The notes below the pieces were generated by a model that did not search any database, was not told the DNA's origin, and was given only the letters and a program-made list of their open reading frames with translations. A stretch of DNA of 37,048 bases from Candidatus Aquicultor sp. Lineage in GTDB: Bacteria > Actinomycetota > Aquicultoria > Aquicultorales > Aquicultoraceae. Location: contig JAUXNY010000016.1 of NCBI GenBank assembly GCA_030682615.1, positions 1 to 37,048 of the forward strand, read 5' to 3'. Below, piece after piece: positions 3,397 to 8,732 of the stretch (position 1 is its first letter; each line of letters opens with the position of its first letter). The position numbers and the translations under genes are program-made.

Positions 3397-4035
3397 ATGT
3401 CGATGGAAGAAAAAATATCGCGCCTTGGGGTCATGGGCGGTACTTTCAACCCGATTCATTACGGACACCTGGTCACGGCCGAAGAGGCTCTATCGCAATT
3501 CAAGCTCGACAAGGTTATGTTTATGCCGGCGGGCGTTCCGCCGCACAAGAGCGACCCGGAAATTCTCTTGCCGGAGGAGCGGTATCTTCTCACAGTCATA
3601 GCCACAGCCTCCAACCCTGATTTCGTCGTCTCGCGCCTTGAAATCGAGCGGAAGGGACCGTCTTATACGATAGACACACTCGCCCAGCTGCAGCAGATAT
3701 TCGGTCCCGACACCACGGTATTCTTCATCACCGGGGCGGATGCGGTGTGGGAGATTCTTACCTGGAAAAACGCTGAAGAACTGGTCGAGCTTACCGAATT
3801 TATCGCCGCGACGCGACCCGGTTACAGCCTCGAGAAGTTTAAGAAACTCCATGTTCTTCCCGAGGGTGAGGGCAGAGAGCCCGGCAGGCCGAGGGTGTCG
3901 ATTATGGAGATACCCGCGCTCGCCATCTCGTCAACCGATATTCGCAGACGCGTGCGGGAAGACCAGCCCATCCGGTATCTGGTTCCCGAAGGTGTCGCGA
4001 GCTATATTAAGAAGTCCGGGTTTTGGAAGGACTAA
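3397..4035 (+). CDS. nadD: Nicotinate-nucleotide adenylyltransferase
   Basis: Cytoplasmic NAD-biosynthesis enzyme that transfers AMP from ATP to nicotinate mononucleotide to give deamido-NAD. The 212-aa protein has the nucleotidyltransferase signature GGTFNPIHYGHL near residues 14-25, the ribose/base contact region MPAGVPPHKSD, FITGADAVWEI, and the C-terminal ISSTDIRRR motif. The length is typical. ATG at 3397 is preceded by AAAGGGA. A second in-frame ATG two codons later is an alternative start. It is the first gene of a tightly packed block with yqeK, an LCP-like gene and rsfS, the usual arrangement in many Gram-positive and actinobacterial genomes. Confidence 0.96.
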   Translation: MSMEEKISRLGVMGGTFNPIHYGHLVTAEEALSQFKLDKVMFMPAGVPPHKSDPEILLPEERYLLTVIATASNPDFVVSRLEIERKGPSYTIDTLAQLQQIFGPDTTVFFITGADAVWEILTWKNAEELVELTEFIAATRPGYSLEKFKKLHVLPEGEGREPGRPRVSIMEIPALAISSTDIRRRVREDQPIRYLVPEGVASYIKKSGFWKD

Positions 4036-4046
4036 AAGGGTCGAGT

Positions 4047-4628
4047 ATGCACGACGTTGGATTCATAAAAGAAAAACTCAAAGCCCGGTTGACGCCGCGA
4101 CATTTTGAGCATAGTCTCGGCACGGCGCAGACGGCCGCGGATATGGCCCACGCCTATGGCTTGGACGAGGAGAAAGCATACCTCGCGGGCTTGCTCCATG
4201 ATTATGCCAAATCCATGAGCGGCGGCGAACTGCTGGCGGCGGCGGCCGGATACGGTATCGAGGCCAATCCGGTCGAAATCGAGGCGCCGTATCTCTTGCA
4301 CTCTGAACTCGGTGCTTGTATGGTCAAAGAAGAACTCGGAATAGTCGACCAGGAGATACTCGATGCCATCGCGTATCACACAATAGGGTCTTGTTCGATG
4401 ACCGACTTTGATAAGATAATCTATATAGCGGATATGATAGAGCCGGGCCGGGCATATCCGGGGCTGGATAGGCTCCGTCACATGGCGTTGGAAGGGCTGG
4501 ACGAGGTGTTTCGCGAGGCGTACGCGCATTCGCTGGCACACCTTATCAAGGCTGGAAAGTTGATTCACCCGGTAACGGTCGAAGTATGGAATAGGTTAGT
4601 AGCACAAGAATATGGACGACTTCTTTGA
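4047..4628 (+). CDS. yqeK: YqeK-type HD hydrolase (symmetrical Ap4A hydrolase family)
   Basis: HD-domain metal hydrolase. YqeK proteins split diadenosine tetraphosphate to ADP, and the family is normally encoded beside nadD. Motifs seen are RHFEHSLGTAQTAADMA (first His), AGLLHDYAKSM (HD pair), LLHSELGA, and IAYHTIG followed by DKIIYIADMIEPGR. All metal-binding His/Asp positions are present. The track starts at 4023 inside nadD. I prefer ATG 4047 because AAAGGG lies 6 nt before it and it gives the usual N-terminus (193 aa). The 3' end overlaps the next gene by 17 bases, indicating translational coupling. Confidence 0.93.
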   Translation: MHDVGFIKEKLKARLTPRHFEHSLGTAQTAADMAHAYGLDEEKAYLAGLLHDYAKSMSGGELLAAAAGYGIEANPVEIEAPYLLHSELGACMVKEELGIVDQEILDAIAYHTIGSCSMTDFDKIIYIADMIEPGRAYPGLDRLRHMALEGLDEVFREAYAHSLAHLIKAGKLIHPVTVEVWNRLVAQEYGRLL

Positions 4629-5712
4629 AGCACAGGAAACCGATAGAGCTACCTCGCGCGCCGACCGCCTGAAGAAGGAAAAAGGCAGGCGCCGTCGGAG
4701 AAACCTCCTTTTATTCTTTTCAGCGGTAGTGTTGTTAGCGGTTGTCATCTTTATTGCTTGGGGGATCTATAGCGGTATGTTTGCGCGGTCGGCGACCCAG
4801 GCGACGAAGCCGGGCAAGAATACCGCTCACAGTGCTGTCGAGGCTAAGACGGAGGTGCCGACCGAGAGCGCCCAGGGCTTGACCGACGATGAGCCGCAGC
4901 AGTTAGCCATGCGCAAGCTGATGAATCTGTTGATTATCGGTGTAGAGGAGACTGCGGGCCGCAAGAGCGCAAAGGGATTGCTCTTGGCAAAGGTAGATTT
5001 TCAAAACGGCTCCATTAAGGCGATCAGCATCCCCGACAAGGTCTATCTCAATATTCCGGGGCTCGGACTCGACCAGATAAGTCAATCGTACAACGTCAGC
5101 TTGAACTCGACCCGTAAAGCCGTTGAGGACCTGCTGCAGGTTCCTATCGAAAACCACGTCGTACTCCACTACGGCGATTTCGAATATCTCATCAACGAGA
5201 AGCGCTTCAACGTAGTCTTCGACAAAGCCGTAGAGACGGGATTCTTCGAAAACGAGGTTCGGGGCTACAGCCGTGAAGTAGACAAGATTAATTCGGCCAA
5301 TACCGATATCATTCCGTTGCCGGTAAAGTTTGTCAGCATCAACGGGGAGCCGTATTATGAGCCCAACAATGACGAGGTAAACCGGCTGGTTTTTGCGCTG
5401 TGGGGAATAAAGCGGGTAGTCAAATCGGATACGATCCGTGTGATAATATTGAATGGATCAGGGACGCCCGGGATAGGGCGCGAGATATCGCAGCGGCTGA
5501 CGTCGAATGGATTCATGGTCACCGATGTCAAGAACGCCAGCAATTTTAGCTATTCGAAGACCCAGATAGTCGTATATAAAGAGGAGTATAAAGAGAAAGC
5601 CAAGACCATCCAGCAGATACTCGGCGTCGGCACGGTGGCGACGCACCTTATCTCGCAGGATGTGGCGGAAATCGCGATAATAGTGGGTAAGGATTTTAAG
5701 AGCACCAATTAA
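4612..5712 (+). CDS. Membrane-anchored LCP-like/LytR_C protein with degenerate active site
   Basis: A 366-aa predicted type II membrane protein with a basic cytoplasmic stretch (KKEKGRRRRR), one membrane helix (about 31-52), then an extracellular part. Residues about 104-192 align by eye with the start of LytR-CpsA-Psr domains (NLLIIGVEE, then KAISIPDKVYLNIPG, DQISQSYN, VPIENHVVLHY). Residues about 275-360 are a LytR_C domain (IRVIILNGSGTPGIG to AIIVGKDF). LCP ligases attach glycopolymers to peptidoglycan using an Arg/Asp set (RSDT, SIPRDT). Here these read KSAKG and SIPDKV, so the catalytic Asp and Arg appear lost. It may be a non-catalytic binding or scaffold protein. It sits between yqeK and rsfS, where a normal LCP gene is common. 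Confidence 0.8.
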   Translation: MDDFFEAQETDRATSRADRLKKEKGRRRRRNLLLFFSAVVLLAVVIFIAWGIYSGMFARSATQATKPGKNTAHSAVEAKTEVPTESAQGLTDDEPQQLAMRKLMNLLIIGVEETAGRKSAKGLLLAKVDFQNGSIKAISIPDKVYLNIPGLGLDQISQSYNVSLNSTRKAVEDLLQVPIENHVVLHYGDFEYLINEKRFNVVFDKAVETGFFENEVRGYSREVDKINSANTDIIPLPVKFVSINGEPYYEPNNDEVNRLVFALWGIKRVVKSDTIRVIILNGSGTPGIGREISQRLTSNGFMVTDVKNASNFSYSKTQIVVYKEEYKEKAKTIQQILGVGTVATHLISQDVAEIAIIVGKDFKSTN

Positions 5713-5727
5713 CTAGGAGGCCACAAA

Positions 5728-6075
5728 CTGGAAGCGCAAGAAATAGTAGAGATAGCCGCGCAAGCGGCGGCAGAGAAACAAGCGACCGACATATCCATCA
5801 TCGATGTCAGCGGCATCTTCGTCATCACCGATTATTTCATGATTTGCAGCGGCCAAACCGGCCGCCAGGTGCTGACTATCGCCGAGAACATCGAGGACAA
5901 GCTGCGCGAGCTGAAGGTGCGAAAAATCGGTCTGGAGGGTGACAAAGAAAAAAGCTGGATATTGTTGGATTTCGGCGCGGTCATCGTCCATGTCTTCACG
6001 CAAGAGCAGCGCAATTTCTACCAACTCGAGAAGTTGTGGTCGGACGCTCCGCGGCGCACCTGGGAAACGGGCTAG
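5728..6075 (+). CDS. rsfS: Ribosomal silencing factor RsfS, CTG start
   Basis: RsfS binds ribosomal protein uL14 and blocks 30S-50S joining in starvation. The frame reads EAQEIVEIAAQAAAEKQATD, then ISIIDVSGIFVITDYFMICS, LEGDKEKSWILLDFGAVIVH, and FYQLEKLWSDAP, a full RsfS/Iojap domain. The ORF track shows only 5839..6075 (from an internal ATG), which would delete the first strand and helix. Upstream of that ATG the frame has no ATG, GTG or TTG back to the stop at 5710. It has CTG at 5728, 7 nt after a perfect AGGAGG (5715-5720), giving 115 aa, the normal family length. I therefore infer a CTG start. The gene begins 15 nt after the LCP-like stop. Confidence 0.9.
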   Translation: MEAQEIVEIAAQAAAEKQATDISIIDVSGIFVITDYFMICSGQTGRQVLTIAENIEDKLRELKVRKIGLEGDKEKSWILLDFGAVIVHVFTQEQRNFYQLEKLWSDAPRRTWETG

Positions 6076-6123: not shown

Positions 6124-6195
6124 GGGGCCATAGCTCAGCGGGAGAGCACTTGGCTGGCAGCCAAGGGGTCGAGGGTTCAAATCCCTCTGGCTCCA
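6124..6195 (+). tRNA. tRNA-Ala (anticodon GGC)
   Basis: A complete cloverleaf can be folded by hand. The acceptor stem is GGGGCCA/TGGCTCC, the D stem GCTC/GAGC, the anticodon stem CTTGG/CCAAG with loop CTGGCAG (anticodon GGC, reads GCC), and the T stem GAGGG/CCCTC with TTCAAAT. The G3-U70 wobble pair, the alanine identity element, is present. The 3' CCA is not encoded (A73 is followed by CAA), so CCA must be added by a nucleotidyltransferase. Antisense ORFs here are the familiar tRNA translation artefact. Confidence 0.97.
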
Positions 6196-6202
6196 CAAAA
6201 AA

Positions 6203-6228: not shown

Positions 6229-6251
6229 GAATATGCAGTTGGAGGGTGAAG

Positions 6252-8732
6252 ATGGCCGACCGATACGACCACAAAGAAATCGAAGCCAAATGGCAGAAGA
6301 GATGGGCGGAGCAGGACATCTACCGCACCTACGAGGATGCCTCAAAGCCCAAGAAGTACATCCTGGAGATGTTCCCTTATCCATCGGGCGCGCTTCATAT
6401 GGGCCATGTTCGCAATTATTCGATAGGCGATGTCGTCGCCAGATATAACAAGATGAACGGCTATAACGTGCTCCATCCGATAGGCTACGACGCCTTCGGC
6501 ATGCCGGCCGAGAACGCGGCGATAGCGCGAAGCATCCATCCGAAGAAATGGACCTTTAGCAACATCGAAAGCATGCGTGAGCAGCTCAAGCAGATGGGTT
6601 TGAGTTACGATTGGAGCCGTGAGGTAAACACGGCTAGCCCCGACTATTACCGCTGGGGCCAGTGGCTCTTCCTGAAGTTCTACGAGCGCGGCCTGGCGTA
6701 TCGCAAAAAAGCGACGGTCAATTGGTGCCCGAGCTGCGAGACGGTTCTCGCCAACGAGCAGGTGGAGGACGGCGGGTGCTGGCGTTGCGGCGCCGTCGCC
6801 GAGCAGCGCGAGCTGGAGCAATGGTTCTTCAAAATAACCGACTACGCTGAGCGTTTGCTATATGATTTGGACGACCTTGACGGATGGCCGGAACGCGTCA
6901 AGATAATGCAGCGCAACTGGATAGGCCGGAGCGAAGGCGCCTATGTCGACTTCGAGATAAAAGGCGGCGACGAAAAGGTTACCGTCTTTACTACCAGGCC
7001 GGACACGCTATACGGTTCGACTTTCTTCCTGCTGGCGCCGGAGCACCCGTTGGTCGATAAACTCGTTGCGGGCACGGCCTATGAGGCGGGCGCGAAGGAG
7101 TTTCGCCATAAAGTCGCGGCCGAGACCGAAATCGACCGCACCTCCGCCGAGAAAGAGAAGAACGGCTTCTTTACGGGAGCCTATGCCATAAACCCGGTAA
7201 ACGGAGAGGAAATTCCCGTTTATCTTGCGGATTACGTGCTTATGGGTTACGGGACCGGCGCGGTCATGGCGGTTCCCGCGCACGACCAGCGCGACTTTGA
7301 GTTCGCCACCAAATACGACCTGCCTATCAGGGTCGTCATCGAGCCGGAAGGTGAGCAGCTAGCTTCCTCGATGATGACGCAAGCCTACGAGGGCGAAGGG
7401 GTTATGGTCAACTCCGGGCCGTTCGACGGCACACCACAGGCCCAGGGGGTCACCAAGGTCACCGAGTATCTAAAGGAGCGCGGCGTCGGCGAGGCGGCGG
7501 TCAACTACCGCCTGCGCGACTGGCTCATATCGCGCCAACGCTATTGGGGCAACCCGATACCGATGGTCTACTGCGATAGCTGCGGCGTCGTGCCGGCAAA
7601 AGAAGAAGACCTGCCGATTAGGCTCCCGGACGACGTGGAAATAACCGGCTCGGGCGGCTCACCACTCGCTCGCCATGAGTCATTTATACATACAGCCTGC
7701 CCGGCATGCGGCGGCGCGGCGCGGCGCGAAACCGACACTATGGACACCTTTATCGATTCATCCTGGTACTTCTTGCGCTACTGCAGCCCACATGATGAGA
7801 CGCTGCCGTTTGCGAAAGAGGCGGTAGACTACTGGATGCCGGTCGACCAGTATATAGGAGGCATCGAGCATGCGGTTTTACACCTGCTGTACTCGCGCTT
7901 CTTCACGAAGGTTCTGAGCGATATGGGGCTTGTCGGCGTCATCGAGCCGTTTACAAACCTGCTTACGCAGGGGATGGTAATAAAAGACGGGGCGAAGATG
8001 TCCAAGTCGAAGGGGAATGTCATAGACCCCGGCGCAATCATCAGCCGCTACGGCGCGGACACCGCGCGCCTATTTATCCTGTTCGCGTCGCCGCCGGAGA
8101 AAGAGTTGGAGTGGAGCGACCGGGGCGTCGAGGGCTCGTACCGCTTCCTGAACCGCGTGTGGCGCTTGGTCGAGGATAGTAAGGGACTTATCGCCGGTGT
8201 AGCCGCGGCGGGCGCGCGCTCTGCCGACAACTTAGGGCCCGACGAACGCGAAGTGCGCTTTATGGTCCATCGCACCATCAAACGCGTGACGGAAGATATC
8301 GAGCGTTTTAGCTTCAATACCGCGATAAGCGCGGTCATGGAGCTGGTAAACACCCTGTACAAATATAACGAGTCTGCTCAGCGTAACCCCGCGGTTATGC
8401 GCGAAGCTATCGATAGCCTTGTGTTGCTGCTCGCGCCGTTCGCGCCGCATCTCATAGAGGAGCTGTGGGAAGGGCTAGGCAATGCCGACAGCGTCCACCT
8501 GCAGACTTGGCCGGCGTTCGACCCCGAGCTTGCCAAATCCGAAGAGGTCACCCTGGTCGTGCAAATAAACGGCAAGGTGAGAGACAAAATCACCGTCGCA
8601 GCCGATATCGCCGAAGACGAGATGAAGGAGATAGCGCTCGCCTCAGACAAGGTCAAGGCGCACGTCGGGGACGCGGATGTTAAGAACATCTTCATCGTGC
8701 CGGGCAAACTCGTTAATATTGTGATCAAGTAG
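6252..8732 (+). CDS. leuS: Leucyl-tRNA synthetase
   Basis: Bacterial-type class I synthetase that charges tRNA-Leu; 826 aa is normal. Visible elements in order are [15 protein letters not shown] (HIGH box HMGH at 49-52), a zinc-finger-like [10 protein letters not shown] to CWRCGA insertion, and the CP1 editing domain with [12 protein letters not shown] and [19 protein letters not shown]. These are followed by WYFLRYCSP, the catalytic KMSKS at 582-586 and an anticodon-binding helical domain ending in a beta-rich tail. The track start (GTG 6246) overlaps the ribosome site. ATG 6252, 5 nt after GGAGGG, is the better start. The gene follows the tRNA-Ala terminator and must have its own promoter or rely on read-through. 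Confidence 0.97.

Follow-up and report, generated by a model that had tools for sequence, protein, structure and literature searches.

Initiation of rsfS, the gene for the ribosome silencing factor, at a CUG codon is close to certain in the uncultured genus Candidatus Aquicultor, and comparison across genomes shows that selection has fixed this codon as the start codon throughout the order. Taken as a whole, the observations are quite probably best explained by a CUG start at position 5728 that is served by a strong Shine-Dalgarno (SD) site and would have been kept non-canonical for the sake of weak initiation subject to discrimination by initiation factor IF3.

The window, i.e., the whole stretch of 37,048 nucleotides analyzed here, has its closest public record in Candidatus Aquicultor primus MELI01000044 (class Candidatus Aquicultoria, Actinomycetota). 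On its forward strand, rsfS is located in the gene order nadD - yqeK - LytR_C gene - rsfS - tRNA-Ala - leuS. These are the nicotinate-nucleotide adenylyltransferase gene nadD (3397-4035; NF000840, 267 bits), the HD-domain hydrolase gene yqeK (4023-4628; TIGR00488, 136.6 bits), a gene with a LytR_C domain (4612-5712), rsfS itself, a tRNA-Ala (GGC) gene (6124-6196), and the leucyl-tRNA synthetase gene leuS (6246-8732 in the ORF list, with a start at 6246 or 6252; TIGR00396, 1138 bits). The frame of rsfS opens behind the TAA stop codon of the LytR_C gene (5710-5712). It is followed by the SD sequence AGGAGG (5715-5720), a spacer of 7 nt, and the CTG (5728-5730), and from the opening of the frame until the ATG at 5839-5841 the window contains no in-frame ATG, GTG, or TTG. 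This is the arrangement that the preliminary description had reported, and it was found again here.

Translation from the CTG gives a product of 115 amino acids (5728-6075, including the TAG stop codon at 6073-6075), which matches the Pfam RsfS profile (PF02410) with 112.2 bits over positions 2-98 of 98 and TIGR00090 with 113.5 bits over positions 2-99, the cut-off of the latter being 56.9. As the match spans the whole domain and exceeds the curated cut-off, the Aquicultor protein is a predicted member of the RsfS family. The mechanical ORF that begins at ATG 5839 encodes 78 amino acids and covers profile positions 32-98 or 33-99 only (80 bits), so that about 30 positions, the first third of the RsfS domain, would be lost. 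Thus, the earlier statements that the domain reaches 37 codons upstream of the first ATG, and that automatic annotation would yield a truncated product of 78 residues, both hold. The SD pairing score of rsfS is 16, which is at the 90th percentile among 286 sampled genes of G002, a genome of the same genus. The pattern alone is not rare, as AGGAGG-N5-9-CTG is present three times in the window, compared with 0.96 expected by chance. Therefore, the significance of the rsfS start rests on its conservation.

Conservation was assessed in 12 genomes of the order, representing seven genera and two families (four genomes from the same genus, seven from other genera of the family, and one from the other family). 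The homologous codon is CTG behind a strong SD site in all 12 and is ATG, GTG, or TTG in none, the result that the preliminary description had proposed to look for in orthologues of the clade. The spacer between the SD site and the CTG is 7 nt in 11 of the genomes and 6 nt in G004. In G005, G007, G008, G009, and G010, an in-frame stop codon lies two codons or fewer before the CTG, so the start of rsfS cannot be further upstream. No canonical start is present through codon 12 in 10 genomes; in the other two, an ATG occurs within the gene, at codon 6 or 9, but has no SD site or a weaker one, and in G008 the first canonical start does not appear before codon 78. The codon corresponding to ATG 5839 (codon 38) is not conserved and encodes valine in the other genera. 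Among the 31 invariant amino-acid columns of RsfS, 28 have degenerate codons, and only at codon 1, the CTG, do all 12 genomes share one and the same codon; the remaining invariant leucine columns use four to six codons. Synonymous differences between genera amount to 0.67-0.95 per site, which is near saturation, and the dN/dS-like ratio of codons 2-37 is similar to that of codons 38-110. The frozen CTG and the purifying selection on codons 2-37 show that the CTG is maintained for its role as a start signal and that the 37 upstream codons are coding. With its lack of a canonical N-terminal start, its conserved codon, and its conserved SD spacing, rsfS belongs to the genes with a conserved non-canonical start.

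The gene infC, which encodes IF3 and starts with AUU, AUC, or AUA, is the textbook example of an IF3-controlled gene and is autoregulated via start-codon discrimination. As expected for such autoregulation, infC begins with ATC behind GGAGGTG in all 11 genomes of the order in which it was read (L154 was not recovered). The IF3_N domain is present in all 12 genomes, and G005 has a typical initiator-type tRNA-Met with a GGG:CCC anticodon stem. Hence IF3 and an ordinary initiator tRNA, which control of the infC or sigR type requires, are found in the same lineage. CUG is known to pair poorly with the initiator tRNA at the first codon position, as shown for a variant initiator tRNA (PMC11497404).

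How common such starts are was assessed in a genome-wide control, in which G002 (1.10 Mb) was compared with G005 of the same family (1.09 Mb) over 424 non-overlapping reciprocal best ORF pairs. Under strict rules, the only shared SD-backed non-canonical starts were those of infC (ATC/ATC) and rsfS (CTG/CTG). Other candidates from the strict scan were rejected as 23S rRNA, antisense or out-of-frame shadows, short overshoots, or, in one case, a TGA-interrupted thioredoxin-like ORF. A sensitive scan added gpsA (CTG/CTG), an M50 protease gene (ATT/ATA), and an unknown ORF (ATT/ATC), and the claim that only two genes have such starts was given up; a further match, A9157, looks like an antisense shadow. 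Shared non-canonical starts thus number about five among about 400 genes, or about 1%, and rsfS is one of few but not unique.

Some of these loci are of interest in themselves. The glycerol-3-phosphate dehydrogenase gene gpsA (G002 C5 ~26313, minus strand; G005 C12 ~147628, plus strand) has its common CTG behind GGAGG. The gene for the M50 (RseP-like) protease (G002 C5 ~9932, minus; G005 C15 ~12616, plus) has an apparent ATT in G002 versus ATA in G005 behind a GGAG-type site, and in G002 a TTG is located three codons inside the apparent non-canonical start. The third is a conserved ORF of about 280 amino acids without a Pfam match (G002 C30 ~126345, minus; G005 C6 ~58491, minus), which has an apparent ATT or ATC start and a strong SD site. 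In the thioredoxin-like ORF (G002:C30:179253-179493, plus) and its relative in G005, the TGA directly precedes PAC or PTC in both genera, and it likely encodes selenocysteine at the first cysteine of the CxxC motif.

In the wider class, the best-placed rsfS start in 35 loci is CTG in 20, TTG in nine, GTG in three, ATT in two, and ATA in one, as called by a mechanical rule based on SD pairing and spacing, with L118, L125, and L028 among the ambiguous calls. No ATG with a good SD site was found at rsfS in these 35 loci; in two families of the class an ATG sits on the SD site itself (spacer 0-1), with a CTG or TTG behind it at the proper spacing. Lineages outside the order were surveyed in part. 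The best 80 genome-contig matches include rsfS genes of Enterococcus and Tetragenococcus that have no canonical start to codon 12 and carry ATA or ATC behind AGGAGG or AGAGGTGA. Among 30 sampled loci of Enterococcaceae, a cultivable group, the start behind AGGAGG-type sites is ATA in 26, ATT in one, and ATG in three, so that ATA appears as the family-wide rsfS start (L275, L280-L308); in G060, the centre genome of this sample, it is ATC. In the loci read from Lactobacillales outside Enterococcaceae, rsfS mostly starts with ATG or TTG. Similar-looking single loci were found in a Dadabacteria MAG (ATC) and a Dehalococcoidia MAG (CTG). The comparison shows that rsfS has, as judged from these predicted starts, repeatedly acquired weak or non-canonical starts outside Aquicultoria. 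As the rsfS start is canonical in most of the bacteria sampled, RsfS does not need a weak start in order to function. Our search of open-licence papers found none that describes a non-canonical rsfS start.

By binding uL14 on the 50S subunit, RsfS blocks subunit joining (PMC7125091), an activity known for the proteins of S. aureus and E. coli (PMC7125091, PMC13246957). We propose that the ordinary initiator tRNA, guided by the strong SD site, would translate rsfS from CUG 5728, and that the retained non-canonical start would make initiation inefficient and expose it to IF3 discrimination, by analogy with infC and sigR. Little RsfS would then be made as long as IF3 is abundant in relation to 30S subunits, and relaxed start-codon discrimination would allow more. 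Throttling of rsfS through IF3 in this manner is likely to be the reason for the CUG start. It has precedents in the repression by IF3 of the GTC start of sigR (PMC5472188) and in S. aureus, where a non-canonical start combined with a strong SD site lowers initiation (PMC13009471). Translational coupling or re-initiation is possible in addition, as ribosomes terminating at the TAA of the LytR_C gene, 15 nt upstream of the CTG, may re-initiate there. In E. coli without RimM (delta-rimM), IF3 and RsfS, both of which keep the subunits apart, rise together (PMC13246957); joint control of the two anti-association factors is therefore an attractive idea, although an unproven one. E. coli rsfS expression peaks during exponential phase (PMC10917681), which is not the pattern that simple induction by starvation would suggest. 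The earlier proposal that a weak start could tune the RsfS level fits the recurrence of non-canonical rsfS starts and the infC precedent, and the pattern reaches beyond the clade considered in that proposal.

Explanations that deny the CTG its role find little room in these data. It is scarcely credible that ATG 5839, despite being the first standard start codon in frame, is used to make a truncated RsfS of 78 amino acids: this reading costs 30 domain positions, places the start at a codon that is not ATG in the other genera, leaves G008 without a canonical start before codon 78, and is already contradicted by the similar dN/dS-like ratio of codons 2-37 and the rest. A sequencing error or recent mutation of ATG, GTG, or TTG has nothing in its favor and, given the identical codon in 12 separate genomes from seven genera, can be regarded as refuted, with hardly any probability left. 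The LytR_C gene and rsfS share a frame in the window, with the TAA between them, as production of RsfS by read-through or frameshifting from the upstream gene might lead one to expect. However, the stops shortly before the CTG in the five genomes mentioned above, and the fact that the SD site and its spacing are what is conserved, make this reading scarcely credible, too.

Other explanations accept the CTG as the start and differ as to why it was kept. Lineage-wide relaxation of start-codon selection, with rsfS as one neutral case of many, could point to the five shared non-canonical starts from the sensitive scan, but such starts are still rare, the rsfS codon does not drift but is frozen, the initiator tRNA seen in G005 has a normal anticodon stem, and other genes use ATG, TTG, or GTG; we consider it very improbable. 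A less remote, though still unlikely, alternative is that the CTG is kept merely for low, constant RsfS, with no control by IF3 or by conditions. Combined with a strong SD site, a weak start would give a fixed low output, and the same pattern is found in non-ribosomal genes: as gpsA and the M50 protease gene have no link to the ribosome, a plain need to keep the product low would suffice. Yet a weaker SD site or a TTG could achieve this, while CTG is invariant in the order and ATA near-invariant in Enterococcaceae; moreover, most predictions of this alternative are shared with throttling by IF3.

A broader version of throttling by IF3 is tentative and, in our judgment, rather doubtful: rsfS may be the second general target of start-codon discrimination after infC, with IF3 on the 30S subunit and RsfS on the 50S subunit co-regulated by initiation fidelity and the balance of free subunits. 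Selection would then have brought rsfS under IF3-sensitive starts repeatedly, with the CUG of Aquicultoria, the AUA of Enterococcaceae, and possibly the AUC of the Dadabacteria MAG and the CUG of the Dehalococcoidia MAG. Like infC, rsfS combines a strong SD site with a conserved non-canonical start, and both products act on the association of ribosomal subunits. RsfS differs from IF3 in that its target is the 50S subunit and in that it takes no part in reading the start codon. Control of rsfS would therefore not be direct autoregulation, and the codon is CUG (or AUA) instead of AUU. Streptomyces sigR (GTC) is also from Actinomycetota, and its conserved non-canonical start keeps a regulator low (PMC5472188); however, it encodes a sigma factor, and the effect of IF3 is experimental there and inferred for rsfS. 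The S. aureus genes ccpN (AUA) and cvfC1 (AUU), found by retapamulin profiling, likewise combine conserved weak starts with extended SD sites (PMC13009471), but they are different genes, and rsfS is not mentioned in the main text of that study. E. coli rsfS is the same gene and starts with a minor codon, UUG (PMC10917681). In contrast to this standard minor start, CUG, AUA, AUC, and AUU are much weaker and lie outside the default settings of gene callers. In a reconstruction of start-codon changes that covered tens of thousands of starts in 36 groups of prokaryotic genomes, very few switches to CUG were seen (PMC5622118), which makes a CUG kept through a whole order unusual.

One practical consequence is that gene callers limited to ATG, GTG, and TTG would, in these groups, either shorten rsfS or overlook it. 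The order-wide CTG and the independent weak rsfS starts in unrelated bacteria such as enterococci suggest that cells deliberately throttle the RsfS ribosome brake at translation initiation. Non-canonical starts recur at this one gene across unrelated phyla, which points to a circuit that controls ribosome hibernation and is directly testable in the cultivable Enterococcaceae.
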